Part shown: positions 9,191 to 31,299 of the stretch, in pieces
Layout: the number at the start of each line of letters is the position of its first letter
How positions within the stretch are numbered: the first letter of the stretch is position 1
DNA from: a virus
DNA length: 31,674 nt
IMG/VR virus record: IMGVR_UViG_3300037348_000059
Coordinates: 1-31,674 of that record
Strand: one strand, 5' to 3'
Made by a program: the position numbers and the translations under genes
The notes under the pieces: model-generated
Told to the model about the DNA's origin: nothing
Database searches by the model: none
What the model saw: the letters and a program-made list of their open reading frames with translations, nothing else

Positions 9191-9315
9191 TCCCCACACT
9201 CTATTTTCGCTTGCTTCCCACGGCATGCTACTTCTGATATGGATTGCAACAATGTTGCTGCGCATGATGCTTGCGGCTTGTGCTTTCATCTTCCAAAAAC
9301 AGAGGTATCGCAGCC

Positions 9316-12300: not shown

Positions 12301-15300
12301 CTGATCGAGGGCGTGAAGCCCGTCACCGACCGCGACCGGCTGGAAGCGCAGGCGAAGAAGCCCAAGCGCGGCGGCGATGCTGCAACGGACTTTGGCCTGT
12401 TTGACACCGGCGCGCGGGACCAGACCGACATGTTCGCGGATGGCACTGCCCCAGCGGCCAAAAAGCCCACAGTGCCAGAACCGAAGCTTCAAGACGGCTG
12501 GCCAAACACGCTGATCAAATCCCGCCATGCGGCCAAGCAGGTCGGATTGACCAGCGAGGCAGTCGGTGACGCATGGTCGAACAAGGACGCGCTGATTGCC
12601 GCCGTTGATGCGCGCCTGAAAGTTCTCGGTTTTCCCGATCTGGTGTCGCAGTTTGCCAAGCCCGAAAACAGTCGCCCACCAATCGGTTCGCCAGAATACA
12701 CGCTGATCGACGCCATGAACGACCTGATGGACATGCAGGCCGAAGAAGCCGCGCAGGGCATGATTACTGACGGCCGCTTGGGATCAAGGATCGACGGGCA
12801 AAAGGCTCTGGTCAAGCGCATGCAGAAGGAAGCCGATGATCTGGCCGGTTCCGTGGCCGAGGCAGCATCAGATGCCGACCCGACGCCGACCGAGGGGCAG
12901 AAGGAAGCCGGAAACTATCAGCTTGGTCACGCGATCTGGAACGGGCTGCACCTGTCCATTGAGAACAAAAAGGGCAGCACCCGCAGCAAGACGACGCCAG
13001 ACGGCAAAACCGCTTGGTCAGTCGTGATGCCTGCGCACTATGGCTACTTCAAAATGACCAAGGGTGCGGATGGCGATCACGTCGACTTCTACATGGGCGA
13101 CGTGGAAACGTCCGACTATGTGATGTGGATCGACCAGGCAGATGCTGAAACCGGCAAGTTTGACGAACACAAGATCATGGTGGGGTTCACATCGCGCGGT
13201 GCGGCGCTGGCCGCATACCGTGCTGGGTTCAGTGATGGCAAAGGCAACGACAGGCTGGGCGGGTTCTTTGAGGGCGATGTGGCGCAACTCAAGGCATGGC
13301 TGGAAAGCACGTTAGATTCCACGCTCAGCGCCAAGAAGCCCGTCAACGGCGCACTCACATTCCCGTTCAAAGAGAAGCCCGTTGCAGCCGCCCAGATCGA
13401 GGCAGCAAGCGAACCCAAGATGCCAAAGGGTTATATTTTGGGTAGTGTTGTAAAGCTATCGAAGTCGCGGGCAGAAATGTCGGCTGGCGATGTTGACGCC
13501 AGCAGCGGTAATTGGGTGGAGGGCGATTACAAAGCAGTCATTTCAAGAGATAATCCATACTCGGTGGTTGGCGGATACGGCAAGACCCGCAACGAGGCCA
13601 TTCAGGACGCCGTAAAACGCGCGCTGCGCAAAGAACCAGATGCACCAAAAAGCGATCAGGCAAAACCGGCCGCGACTGGTATCCTTTCCGGCTTGTCGCA
13701 GGCAAAGCAGGACCGCGCCGCCGAGTTGAAAAAGCGGCTGGCCGACAAAGCCCGGACCCAGACCAGCAGCGGGCTTGATCCTGAATATATCACGCTTGGC
13801 GGCGAACTGGTCGCGCTCTACATCGAGGCGGGCACCAAGCGTTTCGGCCAGATGCTGCGCGACTTTGCAGAGACGACCGGCCTTTCCATGCGTGAGGCGC
13901 AGGCACCGATGCGCGACGCCTACAACCACATTCGCGACGAAATGGACCTTGATGGCAAGGACGTGTCCGACATGGATAGCGCCACCGAAGTCATGGCCGA
14001 TGTTCGCGCCGCACTGGCAGAGGCACTGGCAGAGGCAGACGCACCGGCAGTGGCCCCAGAGGCAACCCCAGCAGCGACACCAGCCCCAACCGGCAACCCG
14101 CTGGCCGACAAGCTGCGCGCCTACGCTGACGGCGATCTGGTGCAGCACACGACCAAACGCGGCAGGGTCTTGTCTGGTTATATCCTCAAAGGCGTGACCA
14201 AGGACGACGCCAAGAAGATTGACGAATACACGTTCAGCAAGGATGGCGGTTTTTTCATCCGCGAGAATGACGCCGCGCAATACTTGGCCGAAGCCGAGGA
14301 CGCAGCCACAGACGCACCAGCGGCGCAGCCGGAAATGGTTGGCGAAGCCTTTAGCGAGCAGAGCGAACAAAGCCAGACCAGCCAGCAGGCAGAGTCTAAA
14401 CCCAACGCCATATCTGGCCCCGACACTCGCATCGAACGCCTGCGCCTTGTTGATCACTTCGCAGAACGCTTGCTGGCTGGTGATGGCTATTCAACGATTG
14501 TCGTGGCCCGAAAGCAGGCCGAGTCCGTTCTTGGCCGGTCACTGACCGAAGCCGACTTGAAGATGATCGAGGAATCCATCGAAAGCGGGATCGTGAAGGC
14601 AGCCCGCGACATTGTGCGCCAAGGCAAAAATGCGGCCGTAACGTTTGACGCGCTGGTCGACCTGTATAAGCGCCAGCCCAAGCTGGCACAGCGCACGTCC
14701 ACGTCCATTGAAATGCAGGCTTACTCCACACCGGCGCCGATGGCCTTTATAGCGTCGACTCTGGCTGGTATCGCACCAGACAGCACCACGACCGTCTACG
14801 AGCCGACCGCCGGAACGGGCATGCTATTGATGAACGCGGAACCGGCCAACATCACGGCCAACGAGTTGCAGACTTCGCGCATGGTGTTGCTATCCAGCAT
14901 CTATGCCGGTGCCGATCTGCGCAACGGCGATGCAATGCTGGATACCCCGCCGAGCGGTGTCGATGTGGTCATTGCCAACCCGCCGTTCGGCAAGGTCAAA
15001 GACGCCGATGGCCGCAACAAGGAATGGGGCTTTGAGGGATCGACCGGCACGACGACCGAGGTCGACCACGCCATTTCCATGCGCGCACTATCTGCGATGG
15101 CCGACAATGGCCGCGCCGTTCTGATCGTCGGTGGACACCAGGGGGATGCCGACGCGCGCAAGCAAAGCTATCGGACTCCGAAAAACCGTGCTTTCTGGAA
15201 GAAACTATACGATAATTATAATGTGACCGAGCATTTCACGCTGGATGGTGGGCTTTATTCCCGTCAGGGCGCGGGCTGGCCGGTCGATGTGGTTGTGATC

Positions 15301-18300
15301 GAGGGGCGTAGCGCAAGCCAAAAAGCGTTGCCTATGAAAGAAGCGCCGACCCTGTATGGCGCATGGGATGAACTGAAAGGCCGCGTCGATGGACGACTTG
15401 ATAGCTTGGACCCCAGAGGGGGCCGAACCGCAGATAGCGATGGCACTGTTCAATCGCCCCAAGGGGGACTTGACGGAGGATCAGTATCTGGACGGCCTGC
15501 TACGCCGGTTCAAGATGCTGGTATCGGAGGAACGCCAACAGGGCAGCAATCCGCTGGCACAAGCGCAGGCTCTGATGCAACAGTGGGACGGCCTCGACCC
15601 ACAGCGGATGGAGGACGTGCCGGAAATGCTGGTGGCGTCGGAAACGCTGCGAACCCTTCTGCCGATGCATCTGTTCCCAATTCCGGCAGCGCAAATCAAG
15701 AACAGTCTGGACGACCGGCGGCTGACCAAACAAATGACCTTTTCGGACCTCCTAACGGCGATCTACCCAACAGCGTAAATCCTGCCGTCAAGACGGTAGA
15801 TCGGAACAACACCGAAGCTGAAACCGACTTTCAGGTTCAGTATTCGCCGCGCTCGAACGCGCGCTTTGCCGTTGGCACACTGGTTCCCAAGAACGTCGCA
15901 ACAGCCGTGGGTCAGGCGCTGGCCAACCTTGCCGACCGCGTGGGCGATATCGATACCTACGTTGCGAAAGAGTTGGGCTATACGCTCGATGAAATGCTTG
16001 GGACCGACAGCAAGCCCGGTTTTTTCTCTGCCGAACAGGTGGACGCCATTGCGCTCGCAATCAGCAATGTGAGCGAAAACGCGGGCTTCATCATCGGGGA
16101 TCAGACTGGTGTGGGCAAGGGCCGCATTGTTGCGGGCATGATCCGGTATGCGCTGCGCCAAGGTAAGACGCCGGTGTTCTTCACGGTCAAGCCGGGACTG
16201 TATGGCGACATGATGCGCGATCTGCGCGATATCGGGTCTGGCGACCTTCTGCCATCAATCATGGTGACGAACGAAGGGCTGCGCGCAGGCGAGGCCGTGC
16301 CTATTTCATCGAAGGCGGGCGACGTGATTTCGTCAGGCACACCGGCAGAACAGAAGGCCGCGATCAGGCACATGATCAACAGCAATAGGCTTCCCGATGG
16401 CAAGGAAGTGCTGTTCACGACCTACGACCAGATGAACACGCAGAAAGGCCAGCCGACAGACCGCATGCGGGCGATGATGGCTATTGCCGACAATGCCATG
16501 TTCATTCTTGATGAAAGCCATGAGGCTGGCGGTTCACCGGCTGGAGCGCGCAGCGCAAAGGACGCGGCAGAACCGCGATCTGTGTTCATGCGCAGGCTGT
16601 TGTCCGCATCCCCGAACGGCAAGATGTTTTCTTCCGCGACCTTTGCGAAAAACTCGACCGTCATGTCGCTCTATTCGTCCACCAACATGAAGAACGCACT
16701 GCCAAGCGAGGCGCAGCTTATCAGCGCCGTAGAGCGGGGCGGTGACGCGCTCTTGCAGGTGATCAGTTCAGGACTGGTGCAGGATGGTCAGTATGTGCGC
16801 CGTGAGCGGACATACGAGGGCATCAGCATGACGATGCAGGTGCTGGATTCCGACCCGATTTCCGCAGAGAACGGCGCGCTGGCTGTGCGTGAAATCTTCA
16901 TGCTGGATAATCAGTATATGGAGGGCGTAAGAGCCGCATATATCGACAATCTGGAAAGCGAAGGCGGCGGCGGCGGCGCTGACAATGCGATTGGCGAGTC
17001 CGGTGCATCTTCCACCAACTTTTCATCGACAATGCACAATGTCGTTTCGCAGTTGCTGTTGTCGATCAAGGCAAAGGAGGTCGCAGACAAGGCGATCCAG
17101 CTTCACAAGGATGGCAAAAAGCCGATCATCGCGCTGTCCAACACCAACGCATCGATCATCGACGACTATGTGCGCGACCGCGATCTTTCGCTGGGCGACA
17201 CTCTTACCGTGCCGTTCAATGAGATACTGCGCCGGTATCTGCAACGACTGCGCCGCATCACGATCAAGGACGAGGACGGCAACAAGACGCACCACTACCT
17301 GTCGGACGCAGAAATCATTGAGTTTGGCGGCGGTGTCGCATTGGACCAGATGCGCGCGACCGAACGCCTGATCGATGAATTGGACTTGGGCGATCTGCCT
17401 GGTTCGCCCATCGACTTTATCCGCGACAGGATGGCAGCCGCTGGCGTCGTCGTCGGTGAAATCACAGGGCGCAGCAAGGTGATCGAGAACGGCGTCCTAT
17501 CGACCCGCAAGGGAGGTCAGGCAGAAAACAAGCGGATCATGAACCGCTACAACTCTGGTGCCGTAAATGCGCTGATCATCAACCGATCCGGCGCGACCGG
17601 ATTTTCGATGCATGCGACAGACAAGGCCGACAATGACGGCAAGGTTCGTGCCATGCTGATCTTGCAGCCCGACAACAACATCGACATTTTCATGCAGATG
17701 CTTGGGCGTGTGAACCGGACGGGCCAAATCGTTCTTCCCGAATACTACATCATGGTTTCCGATCTGGCTGTTGAGAAGCGGCCAGCCGCTCTCTTGATGA
17801 AGAAGCTGGCAAGCCTGAACGCATCGACCACGGCGAACAAGAAATCAGCCGTGATGATGGAGGACGCGCCCGACTTCATGAACAAATACGGCGATAAGGT
17901 CATTCAGCAGTATTTGCGCGACAACCCCGAAGTCTCGATGGCGACCGGCGTTGATGCACCGGGAAATGATGCCTTGTCGGGCATCGCCGCAAAGCTAACC
18001 GGCAAGCTGATCATCATGGGGCCAAAGCGCACCGAGGAAATATACGAGGAAATCGAGGCGGCATATTCCAGCTATATCGAGGAACTGAACAGCCTTGGCA
18101 CCAACGACCTTGAGGCCACCGTTCTTGATGTCGATGCGCGCACCGACACGTCCGAAGTGATCGAAGCCGGAATCGCCACCAATAGCGCGTTCGGTCAGGA
18201 TACCGTGCTTGAAAAGGTCAACATGAAGATCATCGGCAAGCCATACACTGCCAAAAAGCTGGCGGAACTGGTGGACGAGAAGCTGGACGGGAAAACATTG

Positions 18301-21300
18301 GCAGCGTTCACCGCCGATCTGTCCAAGCAGCTTGACGAAATGTTCGCCACCCACGTTTCCGGTGACGTCGCGCGGCGGGCTGATCTGACGAAGCGATTGA
18401 AAGACGCCAAAACCGACAAGCAAAAGGACAACGCCGCCGACCTGATCCGCCGCCACGATGTTGCCGTGACCGAAAGCGCGGATCGTTTCAGGGAGGTCAA
18501 AGACAAGATCACCCGCGAGTTTGCCCCCGGCAGGCCGATGATGGTGCGCTTCCTGAAAAACGGCGCGACGGTCGATGTGATTTATGCCAAGTCTCTGGGC
18601 GTCGATCTAAGCCGCCTCAAGGGCAACCCAACGGCGGCGTCGCGCATATCTGTCAAGATTGCTCTGGCATCACCAGCGCGCCAGATTACACGGTCCCTGT
18701 CCAGCACGATGGACAAGTCCAATGATGCCGACATTTCCTTTGAGAACGCGCGTGACGAGACGGTTGATCGGGCATTTGAAAGCGGTCAGGCCGAGTCCCG
18801 CGAGGAACGCGAAATCATCACCGGAAACGTGATCAACGGCTATGCCAAGTTTGGAGGTTCGGGGCAGATCGTATTCTTCCGGCGCGACAACGGCGAGTTG
18901 GCCCAAGGCTTGCTTATGCCGAAGGATTTTGACGCGAAGAAAGCGATGGAAGGCCATGCGAAGATTTTCCGCACCATCGACCAGGCTGTTCGGTTCGTTC
19001 AGACGGCGGGCAACAACAATGCTCCGGCCATCTTGAAAACAGCCGACGAAGTAATGACCGTGCAGCGGCAAGCCGCGGCACCAGACACGTTCCTTCTGAC
19101 CATCGAGCGCAAGCGCGGCCACAAGCCCTATATCCTGAACAAGACAGTTACAGGCATGCTGGGCGAGTTTTCGTCGCGGTCTGGTCCGTTCAAGAAATAC
19201 GTCTACGGCATCGATCAGTTGTCGGCGGTGCTGGCCGAATACGAAGCCAGCATCGGCACCGAGTATCAGGCACCGGCGTTCAAGGACGAGGCGCAGGCGA
19301 TCATCGATGCAGACAACGTGCCGCCAGACAACGCGCCGCCAGATGGCGGCACGTTGAGCGCCAAGGTAGTCCGCACAGCGGACCCGAAACCCATGTCGTT
19401 CGCGGATCGTCTCAAGAAGATCGACAAGGGTGGCGTCACGCAACTCCACCGCGAACTGCGCGCGGAGTTGAAAGCCTTGGGTGTCGACCACCGGATCACG
19501 CTCGACGTGCAGCCCGATACGATCAACTTCCCCAATCTGGACCCGATGGACGGGTATTTCTTGGATACGGCCATTGGTGAGGGCGTGATCGGTGTTTCGG
19601 CAACGGCTGAAGAAGGGCCGAAAGGTGTCCTGCGCCACGAAATCATCCACGCCCTTCGCCGCCCTGAATTGTGGGGCGGAACACATGGCCTGTTCACCGC
19701 AGAAGAATGGAAAGCACTGGTGTTCGCAGCCCGCAAGGAAACCGCGCTGCGCGCAGAGGTCGATGAACTCTACCCAAATCTGGCCGAGGCGGGGAAGAAC
19801 GAGGAAGTGATTGCCGAAATGTTCCGCATCTGGTCGGACCGGCGCGACCAGATGGACGCGGCGCCGGCTGTTAAAAAGGCGCTGGCGCGGATCGGGGAAC
19901 TGATCGACGCCATCGTAAGGGCGCTTCGCAAGAACGGGGCCAACGATGCGGCCGCCGTGTTTGAGAGCATCCGCAGCGGCAAGATGGGGGGCCGCGATCC
20001 GCAGGGGCCAGGCGGGGCGCGCGGGGCGAAGCAGGGCAATTCCACCAACGCCCCGAGCGACGGCACATTGCAGGCCAAGCGTAAGAAAAGCGGCCCACGC
20101 GGATTTGAGGGCGCACCGAGCGTCTTTGCATCCGGCTACAAAGATGGATCGAAAACGCTGGTCACAAACACGCTCACCGAGGTCATGTCGGACAGGTTTG
20201 GCGCGAACATTCTGGCGCTTGTGCCGGGTCGCCCCTTGCTGGAAGAAGTGGCGCGCGGACTGCCATCGGCCAAGACCTATCTCAAAGCCAAGATGGAAAT
20301 GGATTCCCTGCGCAATGAAATGCATGCCGCAACGGACAAGCTGGCGCAAAGCTGGCGGAAGCTGGTGACAAGCAACAAGGCGCAGAACAGCAAGATGATG
20401 GACCTTATGCATGACGCCACCATTGCGCAGGTCGATCCGTCAGGCCCGTTCATGGCGATCATGGAACCCCGCGATGCCGATATCATGCGCATCTACAAGA
20501 AGCACACGGAGGAATATAAAGCCGCAGCTGCGCGCAAGGCCAAGCACGACCGCAACAAGGCGGCCTATGCCGAGTTGCGGCCACGCTACGATGCCCTGCC
20601 GCCCAGCTTCCAAGCGATGTTCGTCAACGTGCGAAACGCCTACACCAACATGGCAAACGAGTTTGAAAAGGCGGTTGAAGAAAACGCCGCAAAGGCCATG
20701 ACTGTCTCGGTGCGCCGCGCTGAACGCGCCTTTGATCGCAATGTCGAGAAATTCCGCGATGATGGGTTGACCGGCGACGTGTTGCAGGATGCGATCGACG
20801 GCGCCCGCCGCGAGTTGGAGACGGCCAAGGCGCAAAAGCAATGGTCGAAAATGGCCCGATTGCAGCAGCTACGGCAGCGATTTGAGGCAAACCGGATCGA
20901 AGGCCCCTACTTCCCGCTATCGCGGTTCGGGGATTTCTTTGTGACTTCGCGCGACGAAAACGGCAAGGTTGTCAGCTTTTCGCAATTCGAGAGGGTAGCC
21001 GATCAGAAGGCATATGCCGACGAAATGCGCAAAGAAGGTCTGAACGTCGAAACCGGCGTGATGAAGGAATTGCAGGCGCGCGAAGTGGTCGATCCCAACT
21101 TTGTGGCCGATATCGAGGCTTTGCTTGAGGGGATCAGCGCAGATTCTGCCGTCATGGATGCAGTCTGGCAGCAGTGGCTTATGACACTGCCGGATCAGTC
21201 GATGCGGACCAACCGTATCCACCGCAAGGGACGGCCGGGGTATGATGGCGATGCTTTCCGCGCATTTGGCAAGCAGATGTTCCACGGCGCGCACCAGCTG

Positions 21301-23001
21301 GCGCGACTGAAATACGCGCTGGACCTGACCGAAGCCCTCGATGAAATGCAAGGGCAGGCTCGCACCGCGCCAGATCCCGAGCGCGCTGGCCTTGTCTTGC
21401 GTGAAATCGGCAAGCGTCACGAATACACGATGAACCCCAAGGGTTCGGCATGGTCGCAGAACCTGACCAGCACAGCGTTCATCTTCTATCTGGGGATCAC
21501 ACCGGCAGCGGCCATTGTGAACCTGACCCAAACCACAGTGATCGGCTCCGCCGTTCTCGGCGCATATCAGGGCGGGGCCAAAGGGCCGGTTGTTGCTATG
21601 CGTGAATTGTCGAAGGCTCTGGTAGACTTCACGGGCGGGTTGGGCAGCAGCGATCCCGACCACAGCCCTGGGGCCATGACCAGCGCCCGCGTCACGGCGG
21701 AAGAACGCGCCGCGCTGGAGGAAGCCTATCGAGGGGGCATCATCGACAAATCGCAGGCGCATGACCTTGTGGGTGTCGGTGAAACCGGCGTGGAATACAG
21801 CCCCGCGCGCACGAAGGTCATGGGCTACATTTCGTTCTTCTTCCACCACGCAGAACGGGTAAACCGCGAGGTCACATTCCTTGCGGCCTATCGCATGGCA
21901 AAGGCCAAGGGTCTGGACCAGCAGGGGGCGATTGAAAAGGCGGGATCACTGACGTTCAAAACCCATTTTGACTATGCCAACACGTCGCGCCCACGCCTTA
22001 TGCACAACGATTATATGAGGGTGCTTTTGGTTTTTAGAAATCACAGCATTAACATGCTCTATCGCCTTTTTCGTGATACGCACCAGTCGGTTAAGGGTGA
22101 CACCCCTGCGGTCAGGGCAGAGGCGCGGGCGCAGCTTATCGGCATTTCGGCGCAGCTTTTGCTGCATGCCGGTGTGAAAGGTGTCTGGGGCTATGCGATC
22201 ATTATGAGCCTGATCGGTTTGTTCTTCGCTGGCGGCGAGGACGAGGCCGAGGAAGAAATGGAGAAAACATTGCTGGCGTTCCTGCCGCGCGATGCAGTCG
22301 GCATGCTCTTGAACGGCATACCCGGCCACCTGACCGGAATCGACCTGCGATCACGCATCGGCTTCCCTGAATTGTGGTTCCGATCCCCTGACCGCGAGTT
22401 GGAAGGCAGCGACCAGTATTACTATTGGGCATCGCAGTTGCTTGGCGCGATCCCTGAAATCGCGCACAGGGCCGTGCGCGGGGCCGATATGGCGGGGGAA
22501 GGCTTTGCGAATGGCGATTTCTGGGCCGTCATGCGTGGTGTTGAAACGGCATCGCCCAAGTTTCTGCGCGATATAATCAAGTCCGGCAGATACGGCGTTG
22601 AGGGTGCCAAGACGTTCAACGGCGATCCGATCATTGACGACTTCCGCACCGGCGAGTTGATCAGCCAGGTGATCGGGTTTACTCCCGCGCGCCTGTCTGA
22701 ACGGTATGACACAAACCGGCGATTGAAGAACGCAGAGGCGCGGATCACGGACGAGCGCCGCGCGATCATGGGCCAGATCGCGGATCAGATCATCGACGGC
22801 AAGCAGATCAGCGCGGCAAGCCAACGTCGCTGGGACGCCTACAACGCGGCGAACCCAGATTACCCGATCACACCGGCCAACCTTCGCCAGTCGATCCGCA
22901 GCAACGTCCGATCCAGCTTGCGCAACGAGTTTGGTATCCAGATCAACCCGCGCCTGAATGACAGGCTGCGAGAAAATGCAGCGGGGCCTATTTCGCGCTG
23001 A
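9316..23001 (+). CDS. Giant polyvalent protein: ejection, pyrophosphatase-like, N6-MTase, DarB/Sno helicase, zincin, PLxRFG
   Basis: About 4,561 residues from GTG 9316 (AGAGG 10 nt upstream; the frame opens at TTG 9271 without a ribosome site). In order: hydrophobic, Gly/Ala-rich membrane-interacting segment about 230-330 (AAENIATSLPQMG, EGSTETMQEG); linkers; inorganic-pyrophosphatase-like polyvalent domain about 1190-1333 (GNYQLGH, GDHVDFYMG, FDEHKIMVGF); small polyvalent domains about 1486-1550 and 1610-1650; N6-adenine methyltransferase about 1700-2010 (EPTAGTG from 1829, NPPFG 1888-1892); strawberry-notch/DarB-type SF2 helicase about 2160-2900 (Walker A TGVGKG with K2268, DESH from 2399, LGRVNRTGQ 2796-2804); zincin with HEIIH 3441-3445 and a downstream NEEVIAE; PLSRFG 3867-3872; and a C-terminal TM segment near 4285-4305. 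Such proteins are known to be injected and to protect DNA from restriction. Two linkers contain overprinted genes. Confidence 0.9.
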   Translation: MVKNVFAQSPVDAANETARSVLGGAGRTAPQRAAPPQAPSTYDSAALASTYQVPQNVIDAVAQTSGIQDPAELAQFGDRFARTISDHLKNGMKMKDAMTATFGEGEDLQPILDLAVNLAAPRDPAPAHADGERSRLAQSFEQGMASATVRGTDMMVDMSASLEEGALGRMFYAARKKIGLDTDTPEQRAQALRDAPRGDGYIAAKETLERLDAEGFQIADWRDVRGLGSMVSFAAENIATSLPQMGATLASAPLSAPLTIALLGGEANEELKERTDLSEADRVAVATGAGTLMWGLEVFGLAKVFGPLLPGQVAKKALRGELADHLVQGGIKRSAARVLQAAVAEGSTETMQEGIVMAATSASGGEYTRDEVMKRLTDAFVAGGAAGGGIRAGLEPVEAARDKVFGRGEPAAAGPTATLDEVLSAAEARFNELTAKATGGQTMDPETGEVIRTKGAILTAEERAERDFLGQNMSNPDVLAQAAGVTIIEPPQAEAPAAVDPQTGMPPQSPSAVVPAPEAPPAGPMSRAAMAAGPQTRPDLKPDSKVRIAIQGGNPVEAVFKGESGGSLNLEVNGERAIISPEMMASGQFEITPIDALAEAARPEATGLEDLGEVAGAMGGNLRDMLFAKVESGDTTENGAASPILQMAKLIKTNGGTVTRNDLDAINTLTDEVMALPVDKRKAAALERAKGWTPAPAPEAAQAEAAKPYKPREPKLMKRPMTTQIKYITGGIDPGGNVGLELKARGITAQTHPGLFRIGGRNDLDNLPESEWREYGAAVELDGNGYVSQQWIIDSIEAEARGEPIQNTEQQALQQIRNAKLEKDDYEDQLANGTVREDVAPAPLPPMDRFSYIDEASRGDMIDREIAKFEQDTGMTLTGAERAFVTLNFTENEYSIEDSMYSFGQQQIDEGYLDEIDRPENNVPFGDEPDAGTAARDIEGEPEEGAGSDQRPRSPAGTETAVDADAQNDERPGPQDGAESVTPPATEQTPEGEQTLIEGVKPVTDRDRLEAQAKKPKRGGDAATDFGLFDTGARDQTDMFADGTAPAAKKPTVPEPKLQDGWPNTLIKSRHAAKQVGLTSEAVGDAWSNKDALIAAVDARLKVLGFPDLVSQFAKPENSRPPIGSPEYTLIDAMNDLMDMQAEEAAQGMITDGRLGSRIDGQKALVKRMQKEADDLAGSVAEAASDADPTPTEGQKEAGNYQLGHAIWNGLHLSIENKKGSTRSKTTPDGKTAWSVVMPAHYGYFKMTKGADGDHVDFYMGDVETSDYVMWIDQADAETGKFDEHKIMVGFTSRGAALAAYRAGFSDGKGNDRLGGFFEGDVAQLKAWLESTLDSTLSAKKPVNGALTFPFKEKPVAAAQIEAASEPKMPKGYILGSVVKLSKSRAEMSAGDVDASSGNWVEGDYKAVISRDNPYSVVGGYGKTRNEAIQDAVKRALRKEPDAPKSDQAKPAATGILSGLSQAKQDRAAELKKRLADKARTQTSSGLDPEYITLGGELVALYIEAGTKRFGQMLRDFAETTGLSMREAQAPMRDAYNHIRDEMDLDGKDVSDMDSATEVMADVRAALAEALAEADAPAVAPEATPAATPAPTGNPLADKLRAYADGDLVQHTTKRGRVLSGYILKGVTKDDAKKIDEYTFSKDGGFFIRENDAAQYLAEAEDAATDAPAAQPEMVGEAFSEQSEQSQTSQQAESKPNAISGPDTRIERLRLVDHFAERLLAGDGYSTIVVARKQAESVLGRSLTEADLKMIEESIESGIVKAARDIVRQGKNAAVTFDALVDLYKRQPKLAQRTSTSIEMQAYSTPAPMAFIASTLAGIAPDSTTTVYEPTAGTGMLLMNAEPANITANELQTSRMVLLSSIYAGADLRNGDAMLDTPPSGVDVVIANPPFGKVKDADGRNKEWGFEGSTGTTTEVDHAISMRALSAMADNGRAVLIVGGHQGDADARKQSYRTPKNRAFWKKLYDNYNVTEHFTLDGGLYSRQGAGWPVDVVVIEGRSASQKALPMKEAPTLYGAWDELKGRVDGRLDSLDPRGGRTADSDGTVQSPQGGLDGGSVSGRPATPVQDAGIGGTPTGQQSAGTSAGSDATVGRPRPTADGGRAGNAGGVGNAANPSADASVPNSGSANQEQSGRPAADQTNDLFGPPNGDLPNSVNPAVKTVDRNNTEAETDFQVQYSPRSNARFAVGTLVPKNVATAVGQALANLADRVGDIDTYVAKELGYTLDEMLGTDSKPGFFSAEQVDAIALAISNVSENAGFIIGDQTGVGKGRIVAGMIRYALRQGKTPVFFTVKPGLYGDMMRDLRDIGSGDLLPSIMVTNEGLRAGEAVPISSKAGDVISSGTPAEQKAAIRHMINSNRLPDGKEVLFTTYDQMNTQKGQPTDRMRAMMAIADNAMFILDESHEAGGSPAGARSAKDAAEPRSVFMRRLLSASPNGKMFSSATFAKNSTVMSLYSSTNMKNALPSEAQLISAVERGGDALLQVISSGLVQDGQYVRRERTYEGISMTMQVLDSDPISAENGALAVREIFMLDNQYMEGVRAAYIDNLESEGGGGGADNAIGESGASSTNFSSTMHNVVSQLLLSIKAKEVADKAIQLHKDGKKPIIALSNTNASIIDDYVRDRDLSLGDTLTVPFNEILRRYLQRLRRITIKDEDGNKTHHYLSDAEIIEFGGGVALDQMRATERLIDELDLGDLPGSPIDFIRDRMAAAGVVVGEITGRSKVIENGVLSTRKGGQAENKRIMNRYNSGAVNALIINRSGATGFSMHATDKADNDGKVRAMLILQPDNNIDIFMQMLGRVNRTGQIVLPEYYIMVSDLAVEKRPAALLMKKLASLNASTTANKKSAVMMEDAPDFMNKYGDKVIQQYLRDNPEVSMATGVDAPGNDALSGIAAKLTGKLIIMGPKRTEEIYEEIEAAYSSYIEELNSLGTNDLEATVLDVDARTDTSEVIEAGIATNSAFGQDTVLEKVNMKIIGKPYTAKKLAELVDEKLDGKTLAAFTADLSKQLDEMFATHVSGDVARRADLTKRLKDAKTDKQKDNAADLIRRHDVAVTESADRFREVKDKITREFAPGRPMMVRFLKNGATVDVIYAKSLGVDLSRLKGNPTAASRISVKIALASPARQITRSLSSTMDKSNDADISFENARDETVDRAFESGQAESREEREIITGNVINGYAKFGGSGQIVFFRRDNGELAQGLLMPKDFDAKKAMEGHAKIFRTIDQAVRFVQTAGNNNAPAILKTADEVMTVQRQAAAPDTFLLTIERKRGHKPYILNKTVTGMLGEFSSRSGPFKKYVYGIDQLSAVLAEYEASIGTEYQAPAFKDEAQAIIDADNVPPDNAPPDGGTLSAKVVRTADPKPMSFADRLKKIDKGGVTQLHRELRAELKALGVDHRITLDVQPDTINFPNLDPMDGYFLDTAIGEGVIGVSATAEEGPKGVLRHEIIHALRRPELWGGTHGLFTAEEWKALVFAARKETALRAEVDELYPNLAEAGKNEEVIAEMFRIWSDRRDQMDAAPAVKKALARIGELIDAIVRALRKNGANDAAAVFESIRSGKMGGRDPQGPGGARGAKQGNSTNAPSDGTLQAKRKKSGPRGFEGAPSVFASGYKDGSKTLVTNTLTEVMSDRFGANILALVPGRPLLEEVARGLPSAKTYLKAKMEMDSLRNEMHAATDKLAQSWRKLVTSNKAQNSKMMDLMHDATIAQVDPSGPFMAIMEPRDADIMRIYKKHTEEYKAAAARKAKHDRNKAAYAELRPRYDALPPSFQAMFVNVRNAYTNMANEFEKAVEENAAKAMTVSVRRAERAFDRNVEKFRDDGLTGDVLQDAIDGARRELETAKAQKQWSKMARLQQLRQRFEANRIEGPYFPLSRFGDFFVTSRDENGKVVSFSQFERVADQKAYADEMRKEGLNVETGVMKELQAREVVDPNFVADIEALLEGISADSAVMDAVWQQWLMTLPDQSMRTNRIHRKGRPGYDGDAFRAFGKQMFHGAHQLARLKYALDLTEALDEMQGQARTAPDPERAGLVLREIGKRHEYTMNPKGSAWSQNLTSTAFIFYLGITPAAAIVNLTQTTVIGSAVLGAYQGGAKGPVVAMRELSKALVDFTGGLGSSDPDHSPGAMTSARVTAEERAALEEAYRGGIIDKSQAHDLVGVGETGVEYSPARTKVMGYISFFFHHAERVNREVTFLAAYRMAKAKGLDQQGAIEKAGSLTFKTHFDYANTSRPRLMHNDYMRVLLVFRNHSINMLYRLFRDTHQSVKGDTPAVRAEARAQLIGISAQLLLHAGVKGVWGYAIIMSLIGLFFAGGEDEAEEEMEKTLLAFLPRDAVGMLLNGIPGHLTGIDLRSRIGFPELWFRSPDRELEGSDQYYYWASQLLGAIPEIAHRAVRGADMAGEGFANGDFWAVMRGVETASPKFLRDIIKSGRYGVEGAKTFNGDPIIDDFRTGELISQVIGFTPARLSERYDTNRRLKNAEARITDERRAIMGQIADQIIDGKQISAASQRRWDAYNAANPDYPITPANLRQSIRSNVRSSLRNEFGIQINPRLNDRLRENAAGPISR
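12056..12259 (+). CDS. Nested +1-frame gene inside the giant ORF (67 aa, basic)
   Basis: This reading frame lies entirely inside the giant gene, shifted by +1. Its ATG has GAGGGG 7 nt upstream. The product is basic and helical, with the coherent segment LTPEQRRAISKESRKKARA followed by PAAPPELKQRSMRMLKMMNAL, while the giant frame here is an acidic Pro/Glu/Asp linker. By hand count 55 of 68 nested codons end in G or C, against about 36 of 68 in the giant frame, so the nested frame looks more like an ordinary gene of this phage. I do not recognise a family; size and charge would suit a nucleic-acid-binding or inhibitor protein, which is inference. Confidence 0.55.
   Translation: MKSTDQKTTSRSGTSLTPEQRRAISKESRKKARAVINDPAAPPELKQRSMRMLKMMNALDRRTAPKA
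15389..15778 (+). CDS. Nested +1-frame gene inside the giant ORF (129 aa)
   Basis: A second +1-frame gene, between the methyltransferase and helicase domains of the giant protein. The ATG has AAAGG 8 nt upstream. The product looks like a compact helical protein: LTEDQYLDGLLRRFKMLVSE, NPLAQAQALMQQWDGL, VPEMLVASETLRTLLPMHLF and KQMTFSDLLTAIYP. The giant frame over the same bases is a featureless Gly/Ala/Ser/Pro linker rich in GGA and CGA codons. By hand count 94 of 130 nested codons end in G or C, but only about 50 of 130 in the giant frame. This inversion of codon bias is strong evidence that the nested frame is under selection. No family recognised. Confidence 0.65.
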   Translation: MDDLIAWTPEGAEPQIAMALFNRPKGDLTEDQYLDGLLRRFKMLVSEERQQGSNPLAQAQALMQQWDGLDPQRMEDVPEMLVASETLRTLLPMHLFPIPAAQIKNSLDDRRLTKQMTFSDLLTAIYPTA

Positions 23002-23768: not shown

Positions 23769-24545
23769 ATGACCGCATCCAACTTCGACGCCGTGATGGC
23801 CGAGGTGTTCGCCCATGAAGGTGGGTTCGTCAACCATCCATCTGATCCGGGCGGGGCCACCAATTACGGGATCACCATCGGCACGCTGTCCGACTTCCGC
23901 GGATCAAAGCAAACCGTCAGCCAGGTCCGCAACCTGACTAAAGCCGAGGCGCGCGAGATATACCGCCGGAATTACTGGTCCAAGGTGCGCGGCGACAACC
24001 TGCCCGCCGGGATTGATCTGGTGGCGATGGACGGTGGCGTCAACAGCGGCATGCGCCGCGGGGCACAATGGCTGCAACGGGCGCTTGGCACCACTGCTGA
24101 CGGCAATGTCGGCCCTATGACCATCAACGCGGCACTGGTGGCCGATCATGCCGCTGTCATCGTCAAGGCCTGCGCGATCCGCATGGGCTTCCTGCGCGGC
24201 CTTCGGACATTCTCCACCTTCGGCAAAGGCTGGTCGCGCCGCGTGGCATCGGTTGAGGCTGTCGGGGTCCGCATGGTGGCCGAGGCGGGCAAACAGCGTG
24301 CACGGCCCGTCCTGCTGGACCAGAAGGCCAAGGCAGCCGCAACCGCGCAACGTGAGCAGGCGGGGGCCACCACGGTCGGCGCTGGCGGCGTCGGCACCAC
24401 AACACTGGCTGACCTGCCCACATGGGGCCTGATCGGCATCGGTGTCGCTGCCGTGGTCATTGTCGTCATGCTGCTCGGCCGCGCGCGCCACGACAATGAA
24501 CGCGCAGACGCATATCAACGCATCGCAGAAGGAACTAAATCATGA
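23769..24545 (+). CDS. Endolysin: GH108 N-acetylmuramidase with C-terminal membrane anchor
   Basis: A 258-residue protein with AAGGAG upstream. Residues 5-95 form a glycoside hydrolase family 108 domain: AHEGGFVNHPSDPGGATNYGI, with the probable catalytic Glu at 17 in the EGG motif. Residues about 97-165 resemble the type 3 peptidoglycan-binding domain that usually follows (WLQRALGTTADGNVGPMT). After an Ala/Gly linker a strong hydrophobic segment (about 216-237) and a short charged tail follow. There is no N-terminal signal, so export would depend on a holin or on the C-terminal anchor. The gene ends in an ATGA overlap with the holin-like gene. Confidence 0.85.
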   Translation: MTASNFDAVMAEVFAHEGGFVNHPSDPGGATNYGITIGTLSDFRGSKQTVSQVRNLTKAEAREIYRRNYWSKVRGDNLPAGIDLVAMDGGVNSGMRRGAQWLQRALGTTADGNVGPMTINAALVADHAAVIVKACAIRMGFLRGLRTFSTFGKGWSRRVASVEAVGVRMVAEAGKQRARPVLLDQKAKAAATAQREQAGATTVGAGGVGTTTLADLPTWGLIGIGVAAVVIVVMLLGRARHDNERADAYQRIAEGTKS

Positions 24546-27170: not shown

Positions 27171-28259
27171 TTACTTGGACCGCCGGTTGATCGCTATGAC
27201 CGCGCTTTTCTGGTGATCGGGCGAGTGATGGCCGTAGACGCGCTCGATGGTGTCAACGCTTGTCCCGAAGTATCCCGCTGCATCCCAGATCGTCGCGCCG
27301 TTTTGCAGCGCCCAGGTTATCGCGGTGTGCTTGAGCGTGTGCGGCGTCACGTCTGACAGATCGAGGTCGATCCCGCGCGCCCGCGCCATGTCCTGCGCGA
27401 CCTGCTTTGCGTTCTCCCATCCCTTGCGGATATCGCCCACACGGTTGCCCCTGTGATCCTCGACCACGAACCGGCGACCCTTGGCGGCCTGCCGCCGCAG
27501 CCGCGCCAGATAGACTGTTGGCAGGCGGGCAGGCGTCTGGCGCTTGGCGGTCATTACCTTGCCTTGTGGCTTGCGGTAGAGGACGCCTGAGACCGTATCG
27601 ACGTATCCGCCGTGGATCGTCGGCATGTTGATGTGCAGATTTAGGATCGTCTGCTTCCGGCTGCCGGTGTAGAGGCCGCACAGGATGAAATAGGCGAGGT
27701 GTCGACCATCGATGCGCAGGGACCGCGCCGCAGTAAGCAGGAACGCCGTTTCCTGCCGTGTCAGCCACCTTTCGCGGGGCGCAGGGCGCGCGGGCAGGAC
27801 AACCGCTGGTGCGGCTGTCAGATAGCCTTCCTTGAAGCAGTGATTGATCGCGGCGCGCAGCGTTCCGAGTTCACGGCGCACGGTGCCATCAGAGGCACCG
27901 CGTTCGCGCGCATATCGGCGGCAGGTTTCGCCACGGATCGAGGATATGGGCTGTTCGCCCCAGAAGCGGTATAGCGCATCGATCGCGTAACCGATCCGTT
28001 CGGGGCTGGCGACGTTGACCGCGTGTTCTTCGCCATAGAGCGAGAGACACCGGCCAACCGTCATTTCATCGGTTGAAGCTGGACCAGCTGGGCGGTGTTT
28101 CCGCTCAATGTATTCCGAGAGGGCTTTTTCAGCTTCGTCGCGGTTGTCAGTGCCGGTGGAGACGCGCGCCGTGCCGTCCCTGATTTGCCAGTAGGAATCG
28201 CGCCCGTAGGCTGATCGGTCGATCCAGAACAGTCTGGCGCTCTTGGCCCTACGCGACAT
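27171..28259 (-). CDS. int: Tyrosine site-specific recombinase (integrase)
   Basis: A 362-residue tyrosine recombinase. Residues 1-55 form an arm-binding-like N-terminus (WQIRDGTARVSTG), 65-150 the SAM-like core-binding domain, and 165-362 the catalytic domain. Visible catalytic residues are R201 in YTGSRKQ, a candidate Lys at 239, H307 and K310 in HTLKHT, and the nucleophile Y342 in ERVYGHH. The usual second Arg is Lys here, and the usual late His is T333 (YFGTS). I recall the same variants in other alphaproteobacterial phage integrases. The gene points toward the tRNA-derived core 70 bp away and is the last gene of the leftward operon. Its start is overlapped by the excisionase-like gene. 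Confidence 0.92.
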   Translation of the reverse strand: MSRRAKSARLFWIDRSAYGRDSYWQIRDGTARVSTGTDNRDEAEKALSEYIERKHRPAGPASTDEMTVGRCLSLYGEEHAVNVASPERIGYAIDALYRFWGEQPISSIRGETCRRYARERGASDGTVRRELGTLRAAINHCFKEGYLTAAPAVVLPARPAPRERWLTRQETAFLLTAARSLRIDGRHLAYFILCGLYTGSRKQTILNLHINMPTIHGGYVDTVSGVLYRKPQGKVMTAKRQTPARLPTVYLARLRRQAAKGRRFVVEDHRGNRVGDIRKGWENAKQVAQDMARARGIDLDLSDVTPHTLKHTAITWALQNGATIWDAAGYFGTSVDTIERVYGHHSPDHQKSAVIAINRRSK

Positions 28260-28851: not shown

Positions 28852-29030
28852 GTGCAGTCTCCGTCATTCTTTTGGCGCAGAGCGCCAACTTTGATCAGGC
28901 TGTCGAACGCATCGCCCTGCCGATCCATGAAATCGCGCATTTCAGCGCGGCTGTAGGCGCTGGACCGGCCACCGCTGAACGCGATCTGGACAAGCCCATC
29001 GGGCAGGGTGAAATGGCTAAGATCAATCAT
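28848..29030 (-). CDS. Truncated PP-loop (PAPS reductase-like) protein
   Basis: A 60-residue ORF whose start (LVQIAFSGGRSSAYS) is the nucleotide-binding PP-loop of phage PAPS-reductase-family proteins. Those are usually several hundred residues long. Here the sequence departs right after the loop into a short charged helix (RAEMRDFMDRQGDAF) and stops. It may be a degraded remnant or a small protein that keeps the loop for another use. The ORF is intact, has ATGA coupling to the gene after it and overlaps the wHTH gene before it by 8 nt, so it is still translated in all probability. Confidence 0.5.
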   Translation of the reverse strand: MIDLSHFTLPDGLVQIAFSGGRSSAYSRAEMRDFMDRQGDAFDSLIKVGALRQKNDGDCT

Positions 29031-29343
29031 CGGACGCCACCCTTACCCATTTTGAGGGATCTTTCTTTGTGCCGCTACCGTATGACCGGACGAGGCCGGA
29101 TTCTTCCAGCGATCGCAGGTGGTATGATACCGACTGCTGTTGCAGGCCGGTCGGCTCCATAAGCTGCGATGCATGCTTGGGCGTATCCAGCAATTCGTAG
29201 ATAGCCTTTCTGCTGCCGGTCATTCTGGCCTCGGTGTGCTTGACCCAACGATTTCTGCGCTTGGGCCGAAATTGGAACGCGATTGTGGCGGCCCAATTTT
29301 GCGCAAGGTGGTTTTCAGCCGCGATATATTCATCCGGTGTCAT
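29023..29343 (-). CDS. Winged-helix DNA-binding protein
   Basis: A 106-residue protein. Residues about 42-100 have an ArsR/MarR-type winged helix: SRKAIYELLDTPKHASQLME, LQQQSVSYHLRSLEESGLV, then a wing with GSGTKKDPSKWVRV. The N-terminal 40 residues are a basic extension. No metal-binding cysteines are visible. It starts in an ATGA overlap with the methyltransferase stop. It could be a transcriptional regulator of the early operon. Confidence 0.65.
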   Translation of the reverse strand: MTPDEYIAAENHLAQNWAATIAFQFRPKRRNRWVKHTEARMTGSRKAIYELLDTPKHASQLMEPTGLQQQSVSYHLRSLEESGLVRSYGSGTKKDPSKWVRVASDD

Positions 29344-30863
29344 GTTAAAACATCTCCATCTGGAACGCCGGTTGCGTCTCCACTACTGGCGGCTCCCAAA
29401 TCCAAGGACCGGATGCCGTGGGCAGCCGAGAGAGTGCGCCACGCATATGCTGCCTGAATTGGGACCACTCCGTTGCCGAGCAAGCGCAAAGCGCGTGACC
29501 TGTAGGCCAGCCCATCAGCCACGTTACGAAGGCGGGATTGAGCCTCGCTTTGGTCCACCAATGCAGCCTCTTTGCCGACCAGCGTTGATAGCTGCGAGAG
29601 GCTTGATACGCCGCAGATGATGGGTTCGAGGGCTTCCGCCTGCTGGGCGGTGAGTATGGCCGCGAAATTGAGCGCGGTGGCTGCGGCATCGCGGCGCGCA
29701 AAAGATGGTGCGCGATCCGGGCTTGCGCCAATGACAGATCGCCATGCACCGGCGTCTCCCGGGCTGGGGGGGAAAAGCCCTGTTCCGCGCGATAGTCCAG
29801 TTGATCCATGCGGCTTTTGCCGTCCTTGCGGGTAACAGTCGGGCCGCCGCCCTTCTGGTCGCGGGATCTCGGTGTCGGCCACTTGTCCGCTGTCGTTTGC
29901 AGATCCTCGCCCCCCTGCTGGTTGCCGCTCACTCCATTCGCCGATTGGACACGAGGGCTGGGCCATTGGTTGACCTTCTGCGTCAGGCTGCTGCCAGACA
30001 TGCCATCCGTAATCCCAATCCCGCCCCTGTTGGCATCCGTCGCTGATGGCGTTGTCCACATTTTTGCTTGGTTCTCCAAGCCGACCTGCCCCTTGGTCCC
30101 ATCCATCTTCCGGCCTGTCAGTGTCATTCCTTCTGGCATCGACCGCCCGCCATTCGGAACGTCTGGCGTTTTCCAAAGCGCCCCCTGGCCCTCCAACGTC
30201 AGGCGCTGGCTGTCTTTGCAGCCTCGATCGCGTGTGTATCCCCCAGACACAGTTCGCGGCGTCTGCCACTGCGATATCACCGCGGTCAACGTATCCGCCA
30301 CGCCCCTGCCGTGCCGCATCCCCGCGGACTCCGAGTCCTCGGCCCTCGCGGTGGGCCACGCAAAACCAGCGTTGCCGTTCATGCGTAGCGCCGACTTCTT
30401 GCGCAGAGAATATGCCAGCCGCAGGCGTAAAGCCCATGTCGCGTAGTTCTCGCAAGACGGCTTCTGCGCCAAGACTGACGTGACCGGCGACGTTCTCAAG
30501 AATGATCCATCGCAATCCGTCGCCGAGTTCTCGGGCGACACGCGCGACGTGTGGCCAGAGGTGTCTGGGATCATCGGCACCCTTGCGCTGCCCCGCCATG
30601 CTGAACGGCTGGCAAGGATAGCCAGCCAGCAAGGTGTCGATTGCGCCAGCAAAGCGTGTGGCGTCGAATGTGGTAAGATCATCCCAGATCGGGGCGGGGG
30701 CGAAGTATCCGGCCCGCTGGGCTGCGATGATGGCTGATCGAGGGTATTCCTCCCATTCGACAAAGCAGCGGGTGTGGAATTGCGGCTCCGCAAGCAGGAG
30801 GCCCATATCAAGGCCACCGGCCCCGGCGCAGAGGGATAACCCGTTTCTGGGACGTGTTTCCAT
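29340..30863 (-). CDS. C5-cytosine DNA methyltransferase (frame A)
   Basis: A 507-residue protein from the ATG at 30863; in-frame GTG codons at 30875 and 30878 would overlap the upstream stop. Motif I LSLCAGAGGLDMG (9-21), motif IV PCQPFS with catalytic C84, motif VI ENV (123-125) and motif VIII QEVGATHERQRWF (155-167) are all present, and motif X LGNGVVPIQAAYAW starts at 462. Between VIII and X lies a long, variable, polar region with repeats of the VADA/VADT type instead of a compact recognition domain. It probably protects phage DNA from host restriction. The same DNA is open in a second frame over the same length. The stop is coupled to the next gene by ATGA. Confidence 0.88.
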   Translation of the reverse strand: METRPRNGLSLCAGAGGLDMGLLLAEPQFHTRCFVEWEEYPRSAIIAAQRAGYFAPAPIWDDLTTFDATRFAGAIDTLLAGYPCQPFSMAGQRKGADDPRHLWPHVARVARELGDGLRWIILENVAGHVSLGAEAVLRELRDMGFTPAAGIFSAQEVGATHERQRWFCVAHREGRGLGVRGDAARQGRGGYVDRGDIAVADAANCVWGIHTRSRLQRQPAPDVGGPGGALENARRSEWRAVDARRNDTDRPEDGWDQGAGRLGEPSKNVDNAISDGCQQGRDWDYGWHVWQQPDAEGQPMAQPSCPIGEWSERQPAGGRGSANDSGQVADTEIPRPEGRRPDCYPQGRQKPHGSTGLSRGTGLFPPSPGDAGAWRSVIGASPDRAPSFARRDAAATALNFAAILTAQQAEALEPIICGVSSLSQLSTLVGKEAALVDQSEAQSRLRNVADGLAYRSRALRLLGNGVVPIQAAYAWRTLSAAHGIRSLDLGAASSGDATGVPDGDVLT

Positions 30864-30868
30864 GCCAT
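29345..30868 (-). CDS. Second open frame over the methyltransferase gene, with W-x-T/S-P repeats (frame B)
   Basis: This frame starts in a TAATG overlap with the upstream stop, 5 nt before the frame-A ATG, and stops 5 nt before the frame-A stop; both are 507 residues. Its first 160 residues look like out-of-frame translation (Ser/Pro/Arg-rich). After that it has five W-x-T/S-P repeats (WQTP, WKTP, WTTP, WPSP, WPTP, each followed by a polar stretch) and from 443 LNPAFVTWLMGWP and CSATEW, both of which I know from phage methyltransferase proteins. In 29844-30059, 53 of 72 frame-B codons end in G or C, against 44 of 72 in frame A. It could be expressed alone, by frameshifting, or be a relic of an older frame. 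Confidence 0.45.
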   Translation of the reverse strand: MAWKHVPETGYPSAPGPVALIWASCLRSRNSTPAALSNGRNTLDQPSSQPSGPDTSPPPRSGMILPHSTPHALLAQSTPCWLAILASRSAWRGSARVPMIPDTSGHTSRVSPENSATDCDGSFLRTSPVTSVLAQKPSCENYATWALRLRLAYSLRKKSALRMNGNAGFAWPTARAEDSESAGMRHGRGVADTLTAVISQWQTPRTVSGGYTRDRGCKDSQRLTLEGQGALWKTPDVPNGGRSMPEGMTLTGRKMDGTKGQVGLENQAKMWTTPSATDANRGGIGITDGMSGSSLTQKVNQWPSPRVQSANGVSGNQQGGEDLQTTADKWPTPRSRDQKGGGPTVTRKDGKSRMDQLDYRAEQGFSPPARETPVHGDLSLAQARIAHHLLRAAMPQPPRSISRPYSPPSRRKPSNPSSAAYQASRSYQRWSAKRLHWWTKARLNPAFVTWLMGWPTGHALCACSATEWSQFRQHMRGALSRLPTASGPWIWEPPVVETQPAFQMEMF

Positions 30869-31299
30869 TACACACCACCCGTATATCCGCCGCGCTGGCG
30901 GTGTTGGTCGTTCATGGCGTCTGCCTTGGCAATCTCGCGCTCGATCATTACGGGATCGGTGCCGTGAGCGGTCACCGGAGCCAATAACAGGTGATCAAGC
31001 ACGGCTTTGACCTGATGTTGGGCGTCTTTTTCGTGCGCCCATTCGTGTGTGATCCCGACGCCGCCAGGCAGCACGACACGGAGCATCGCACCCCCTCCGA
31101 GTTCAACACTCACGGCGGCCGCATAGCCCCACCTGATGCCGTCCAGAATTGCGCCGTTGAATATGTCCTCTGCATCATCCTCGGCCATTTCGTCGGCCAC
31201 CTCGGCAATCAGATCAGCCGCCTCGTCCACATCGAGGCACTTCAAGCCATCGATCGTGGCGACGATGTTTGCTTTGAGAATTTCTCGTGGGTCAGTCAT
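30868..31299 (-). CDS. Hypothetical protein (143 aa)
   Basis: Starts with GGAG before the ATG and ends in TAATG overlap with the methyltransferase locus. Residues 1-55 are acidic and helical (DVDEAADLIAEVADEMAEDDAED), the centre is hydrophobic and beta-like (GYAAAVSVELGGGAMLRVVLPGG), and an ITHEWAHEKDAQHQ stretch resembles a metal-binding HExxH-like sequence but lacks that exact spacing. No family recognised. It is the second gene of the leftward operon. Confidence 0.55.
   Translation of the reverse strand: MTDPREILKANIVATIDGLKCLDVDEAADLIAEVADEMAEDDAEDIFNGAILDGIRWGYAAAVSVELGGGAMLRVVLPGGVGITHEWAHEKDAQHQVKAVLDHLLLAPVTAHGTDPVMIEREIAKADAMNDQHRQRGGYTGGV

Follow-up and report, generated by a model that had tools for sequence, protein, structure and literature searches.

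The window analyzed here is a stretch of 31,674 nt (IMG/VR virus record IMGVR_UViG_3300037348_000059, positions 1 to 31,674). Reading its sequence, we found two long overlapping frames on the minus strand, named frame A and frame B, of which B is read +1 relative to A. The first-pass annotation had described two 507-codon frames whose starts and stops each lie 5 nt apart (TAATGGCATGG at the starts), and this held. The TAA stop codon of the upstream ORF overlaps the ATG of B (30866-30868) in the sequence TAATG, and the ATG of A occupies 30861-30863. GTG codons also occur in frame A 5' of this ATG, and the listed ORF starts at GTG 30878 and encodes 512 aa. Equality of A and B to the codon is a peculiarity of the window copy, while near-shared ends recur in close relatives. 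All features are listed in Table 1.

Table 1. Features of the dual-frame locus and its surroundings (window coordinates).
Feature	Position	Strand	Basis
Frame A, ATG 30863 to TGA 29340; C5 cytosine methyltransferase, motifs I-VIII and X, 507 codons	29340..30863	-	PF00145, phrog_363, motif positions
Frame B, ATG 30868 to TAA 29345; +1 overlapping gene, WPTP/LNPxFVxWLMGWP protein, 507 codons	29345..30868	-	phrog_27243, phrog_1008; open in relatives
Initiation site common to A and B, TAATGGCATG	30861..30870	-	Sequence; paired starts in relatives
Segment under A constraint, A codons 26-150, lying between motifs I and VIII	30414..30788	-	p3 0.353 vs p1 0.105
Segment under B constraint, A codons 176-350, carrying the W-x-T/S-P modules	29814..30338	-	p1 0.347 vs p3 0.138
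B motif RKDGKSRMD, kept across diverse phages	29804..29830	-	Alignments A1 and A3
B motif LNPAFVTWLMGWP, motif IX-like position	29504..29542	-	Near-invariant columns in alignments A1 and A3; p1 > p3 at codons 401-450
A motif X (LLGNGVVP), overlapping the conserved tail of B	29460..29483	-	A residues 461-468; substitution rates
B tail SATEWSQFRQHMRGALSRLPTASGPWIWEPP, kept in close relatives	29387..29479	-	66% identity in L061 over B 440-507
A stop TGA overlapping ATG of next ORF	29340..29343	-	Next ORF 29023-29343, ArsR-type HTH protein
ArsR-type HTH protein, next gene 3' of the methyltransferase	29023-29343	-	
Integrase	27171-28259	-	
GH108 endolysin	23769-24545	+	

The integrase, the ArsR-type HTH protein and the GH108 endolysin point to a temperate phage, whose host, judged from relatives, is probably an alphaproteobacterium. 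The window also carries a single ORF of 4,576 aa (9271-23001, plus strand) that matches DarB-like antirestriction proteins (PHROG 10089) and contains LPD39, inorganic pyrophosphatase and strawberry-notch-type helicase domains and a weak N6-methylase match. It is a very large phage polyvalent protein encoded on the strand opposite to the methyltransferase.

Frame A matched PF00145 over residues 9-175 in a Pfam search (E 2e-26) and phrog_363 in a PHROG search (E 1.6e-46). Its recognizable motifs are SLCAGAGG, PCQPFS, ENV, HERQRWF and LLGNGVVP; C5 methyltransferase motifs I, IV (PCQ), VI (ENV) and VIII (RxR) are all present, and the motif X requirement (GNxVxP) is satisfied and under constraint. 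The earlier assignment of the catalytic motifs and motif X to this frame was therefore correct. The conserved small domain, i.e., the target-recognition domain (TRD) plus motif IX, is absent from the A chain, where the Pfam match stops at residue 175 and the middle is unconstrained.

Frame B matched phrog_27243, a family of unknown function (E 5.5e-43), and its WPTP and WLMGWP parts matched phrog_1008, 'DNA methyltransferase' (E 1.4e-17), both in PHROG searches; no match was found in Pfam or NCBIfam. The five W-x-T/S-P repeats noticed in the first reading are WQTP, WKTP, WTTP, WPSP and WPTP, to which WPTA can be added. As had also been noticed, the WPTP of B (29870-29881) is the VADT of A (29871-29882) shifted by one base, and the VADG of A lies under the WLMGWP of B. 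The likeness of LNPxFVxWLMGWP to motif IX rests on its position and on in-frame homologues, without a fold match for B. The length of B varies at its 3' end: in Microcystis phage Mae-JY24 (L150, 1938-3131) it stops straight after WLMGFPEGWL, so the tail 3' of the IX-like motif is possibly dispensable in some lineages. In two other loci it is about 200 codons longer, through an insertion ahead of the conserved tail (L063, 2987-4846) or read-through into the apparent next gene (L064, 2993-4765).

Searching for relatives, we found 59 loci in viral contigs by frame B and 5 by frame A. The B profile gave 80 further loci in bacterial genomes, mostly Rhodobacterales, and phage records supplied additional ones; searching these records at the DNA level was too insensitive to contribute much. 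The B match lay at +1 of the A match in 145 of 149 phage and prophage loci, and to this extent the earlier proposal held that one stretch of DNA, read in two frames, gives both the VADA-type and the WPTP-type regions. Since most of the 149 loci were recovered via frame B, this is not a frequency among all phage C5 methyltransferases. The four exceptions (L057-L059 and L141) have a one-base shift joining A to B, and L061 likewise carries one; these shifts may be genuine or assembly errors. At about locus position 3025, L021 has 10 consecutive G where L057-L059 have 9, a change that merges the catalytic part of A with the C-terminal part of B into one ORF and could reflect either phase variation or a shared indel. 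In a tree of the catalytic domain, dual-frame members were scattered and the in-frame and canonical groups were separate, leaving the number and direction of dual-frame origins unresolved.

In all 145 loci A and B share a common open stretch of 124-637 codons (median 383), whereas the third frame is never stop-free (median 11 stops). When the A protein of the window was held fixed and its synonymous codons were permuted, 7.8 B stops were expected but none occurred (p 0.0025); the converse permutation under a fixed B predicted 8.7 A stops, and again there were none. Across the 145 loci the corresponding expectations were about 2-9 B stops (A fixed) and about 3-19 A stops (B fixed), with none seen, and full-length relatives gave the same result as the window. 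It was replicated in elements of E. coli, Klebsiella, Salmonella, Citrobacter and Marinobacter (p 0.0005-0.025), and both frames are also open in phage loci of 37-43% G+C. Chance is thus ruled out as the source of the double open frame. The family takes in E. coli prophages and E. coli phage Bas71; a relative of the gene of Salmonella phage SEN5 is present in 69 of 5,426 complete E. coli genomes, and the +1 frame was there in all five E. coli copies read. In several low-G+C viral loci (L010, L012, L029 and L051 among them) the overlap has about 50% G+C within surroundings of 37-38%, possibly as an effect of two-frame coding or of gene transfer.

The start of B adjoins that of A in most members. 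Paired starts are 2 or 5 nt apart, and the ATG of B lies upstream of the A start at one of these distances in many members. The pair reads ATGGCATGG in the alphaproteobacterial group and ATGTGG in many marine phages, with ATG for B and GTG for A. Enterobacterial members have no shared start; their B is open only from about codon 38 or later, and most of them conserve an internal Met around codon 40 (MTLxDS or MSxxxT). Judged from sequence alone, enterobacterial B would start internally at about that codon, a point against the split-enzyme model set out below.

We then compared 84 close relatives (2,975 pairs), counting differences at each A codon position (p1, p2 and p3). The third position of an A codon is the second of a B codon, and the first of an A codon is the third of a B codon; the position that changes fastest therefore shows which frame is under selection. 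Between motifs I and VIII (codons 26-150) p3 exceeded p1 (Wilcoxon 3.9e-17), indicating selection on A, and p3/p1 was 2.5-5.3. Over the W-x-T/S-P modules (codons 176-350) the order was reversed (Wilcoxon 2e-10; p3/p1 0.28-0.79), indicating selection on B, as it was at codons 401-450 (p1 0.217, p3 0.083, Wilcoxon 0.00089), with a ratio of 0.26 at codons 426-450. At codons 1-25 and 451-480 both p1 and p3 were low, as expected if both frames are selected; all positions were low and p3/p1 was about 1.2 at codons 1-25 and 451-475 (at the latter, p1 0.109, p2 0.029, p3 0.129). The Wilcoxon p values serve only as guides because the columns share ancestry.

The same frame switch appeared in independent diverse viral loci and in the enterobacterial set, where motif X returned to the A-type pattern (p3/p1 1.9); diverse A proteins offered too few conserved stretches for an alignment scan. 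No switch was seen in the controls, 45 canonical Streptococcus-phage methyltransferases and 28 mycobacteriophage in-frame enzymes, and ordinary phage C5 methyltransferases displayed A-type selection only. Selection along the gene is thus a mosaic, on A over motifs I-VIII, on B over the WPTP region and LNPxFVxWLMGWP, and on both at the start and at motif X. Synonymous constraint in both frames had been named in the first-pass annotation as a measurement to make, with early B stops and no B-specific conservation in relatives as one refuting outcome; the opposite was found.

Stops in B were counted separately at codons 26-150, where A third positions vary freely. The 85 close loci together had 1 where 68 were expected, and the 50 diverse loci had 2 where 87.6 were expected. 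The +1 frame of in-frame relatives had 86 stops against 92 expected, and that of canonical enzymes 74 against 275, a depletion that we attribute to shared ancestry. From the 3 stops against about 156 expected, we infer that B is translated through the catalytic region. Both frames are open beyond chance and under purifying selection, and the pair meets the criterion for an overprinted gene pair.

The two parts also occur joined. In Wachhund gp69 and prophiGD91-2 gp27, the catalytic domain and the C-terminal half of B form one polypeptide, followed by motif X; the B HMM matched them in frame 0 (E 2.8e-12 and 1.3e-12, respectively). In Nyxis 78/77 the catalytic domain and the B-type half are two adjacent genes. 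These mycobacteriophage enzymes share with the window the catalytic domain, (L/W)PTP modules and an EWMMGWPxGW motif, but are encoded as one polypeptide or two adjacent genes, with stops in the +1 frame and selection on a single frame. Frame switching between relatives, which the first-pass annotation had offered as one explanation, thus held in the form of in-frame fusions. In two mycobacteriophage loci (L151 and L157), the +1 frame keeps an LPTP module just 3' of motif VIII and then stops, a pattern that would result if a one-base shift had brought the later modules in frame.

Taking these observations together, we consider it likely that the locus encodes a split C5 methyltransferase, with A as the large domain and B as the small target-recognition domain, both read from one DNA stretch. 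The open frames, the mosaic selection, the paired start codons and the existing fusions are shown; translation, heterodimer formation, activity and specificity are inferred. A would supply the large catalytic domain (motifs I-VIII and, past a long linker without constraint, motif X). B would supply the small domain, with the W-P-T-P modules as target-recognition region and the motif-IX-like LNPxFVxWLMGWP, preceded by a Ser/Pro/Thr-rich leader with few constraints past its first 25 codons or so. In the subgroup with paired starts, one initiation site may serve both frames, the ATG of B being coupled to the upstream stop and that of A lying 2-5 nt on. A and B are predicted to associate in trans into one enzyme in which B would set the specificity, with phage DNA self-modification as its putative role. 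That they are two halves of one enzyme is inferred because their selected parts are complementary and are fused or adjacent in mycobacteriophages. In solved C5 methyltransferases most motifs lie in the large domain and the variable region and motif IX in the small one, and a model of M.SssI places motifs I-VIII and X in the large domain (PMC3404938). The partition between A and B matches this division and supports the split-enzyme model.

Structure prediction neither supported nor refuted this model. AlphaFold2 on B (77 sequences) predicted a few helices at a mean pLDDT of 52. For L141, a natural fusion of A and B, the prediction was confident in the catalytic domain, which matched the large domain of M.HhaI (171 columns, E 5.7e-15), whereas the B-derived part stayed below about 67 and was not confidently folded; the best PDB alignments covered little beyond the catalytic domain. 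The predictions are uninformative on the recognition domain. With no protein-level evidence for either product, the split model rests on sequence.

Three other explanations were weighed. In programmed ribosomal frameshifting, ribosomes would pass from A (motifs I-VIII) by +1 into B (TRD and motif IX), and maybe back for motif X, yielding one canonical polypeptide. The frame-by-frame selection pattern is what such a fusion predicts, natural in-frame A-B fusions are known (Wachhund, prophiGD91-2, L141 and L057-L059), and the G9/G10 run lies at the fusion point of the L021/L057 group. However, frameshifting needs neither an open, start-bearing B in the catalytic region nor an open A through the TRD region, and both are found; the B tail past motif X is also conserved, and no common slippery site was noticed at the transitions, though no systematic search was made. 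We consider this explanation unlikely. Among the three mechanisms that the first-pass annotation had listed, dual coding is best supported, with B nearly stop-free in the catalytic region and its start beside that of A, and frameshifting is unneeded, yet not excluded.

Alternatively, both proteins might be made, with B serving a separate overprinted function as a regulator, anti-restriction factor or inhibitor. B alone indeed has no recognized fold or Pfam match, and PHROG 27243 is of unknown function. Against this, mycobacteriophages carry the constrained part of B as an in-frame fusion with the catalytic domain, and the middle of A is unconstrained, so that A alone would lack a conserved TRD; we regard this reading as very unlikely. 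The remaining possibility is that only A codes and B is a shadow ORF, its openness and conservation following from the A protein and high G+C. Long open shadow frames do occur in G+C-rich DNA, and the B profile, in its N-terminal half, also finds the +1 frame of Javan577, an ordinary methyltransferase, for which reason N-terminal profile similarity was dropped as evidence. Yet in the gene middle A third positions are conserved and first positions free, the reverse of a shadow, and stops are absent despite many expected, including in loci of 37-43% G+C. The shadow reading is all but excluded: codon-position rates, set against the controls, refute it for the gene middle, and its rejection is less firm for the N-terminal leader.

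Natural two-polypeptide C5 methyltransferases are known in M.EcoHK31I and M.AquI (PMC3404938). In M.EcoHK31I, which recognizes YGGCCR, the larger chain carries motifs I-VIII and X and the smaller chain motif IX (PMC3404938), and the gene for beta is reportedly nested in that for alpha, in another frame (Lee, Kam and Shaw 1995). A fits the large chain, and B carries an IX-like motif, albeit without a fold match; a second chain inside the first gene in another frame, as reportedly in M.EcoHK31I, is seen in 145 of 149 loci. The TRD of M.EcoHK31I is predicted in the large chain (PMC3404938), whereas the selected TRD of the phage family is in the second frame. The phage overlap, moreover, spans nearly the whole gene, with a shared initiation site in many members, and occurs in many phage groups. 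In M.AquI, motifs I-VIII are on one chain and part of the variable region plus motif IX on the other (PMC3404938). By analogy, A and B would likewise form one enzyme from two polypeptides, with catalytic motifs I-VIII on one of them. The beta chain of M.AquI carries motif X, which in the phage family is in A, so the M.AquI criterion for the second chain is not met; and M.AquI divides its variable region between chains, whereas the phage family reads one DNA stretch twice. M.EcoHK31I is the closest precedent, judged by motif layout rather than by sequence comparison; overlap along the full length, a start site common to both frames and the breadth of the family appear to be new. Paenibacillus phage Rani has a similar pair, gp50/gp51, in which gp51, in the +1 frame of the methyltransferase, is annotated 'g50 Internal gene'; this record claims no mechanism or generality. 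A search of the open-access literature returned no account of this dual-frame family, most subscription papers being outside its coverage.

Dual coding explains an oddity of the databases, in which identical loci are annotated in different frames, usually only one of the two. Of two near-identical Synechococcus phages, JY39 is annotated in B ('hypothetical protein') and Yong-M2-251 in A ('cytosine-specific DNA methyltransferase'). The annotated frame of Acidovorax phage Alfacinha1 is B; on a Roseicitreum plasmid B is named 'DNA methyltransferase' and the catalytic A is missing from the gene table, which is incomplete. PHROG 27243 and similar families thereby gain a likely role. Long same-strand overlaps coding two parts of one enzyme are rare, and nature has replicated this one well over a hundred times, also in E. 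coli elements, so that it can be tested at the bench. A bolder reading, toward which we lean only slightly, is that of a widespread phage enzyme class whose heterodimer subunits are overwritten nearly from first to last base and share one initiation site that would set their ratio; recombination of modules would alter recognition in one frame and be tolerated as free linker in the other. Should specificity lie with B, its modular WPTP region would be a readable code for phage DNA methylation.
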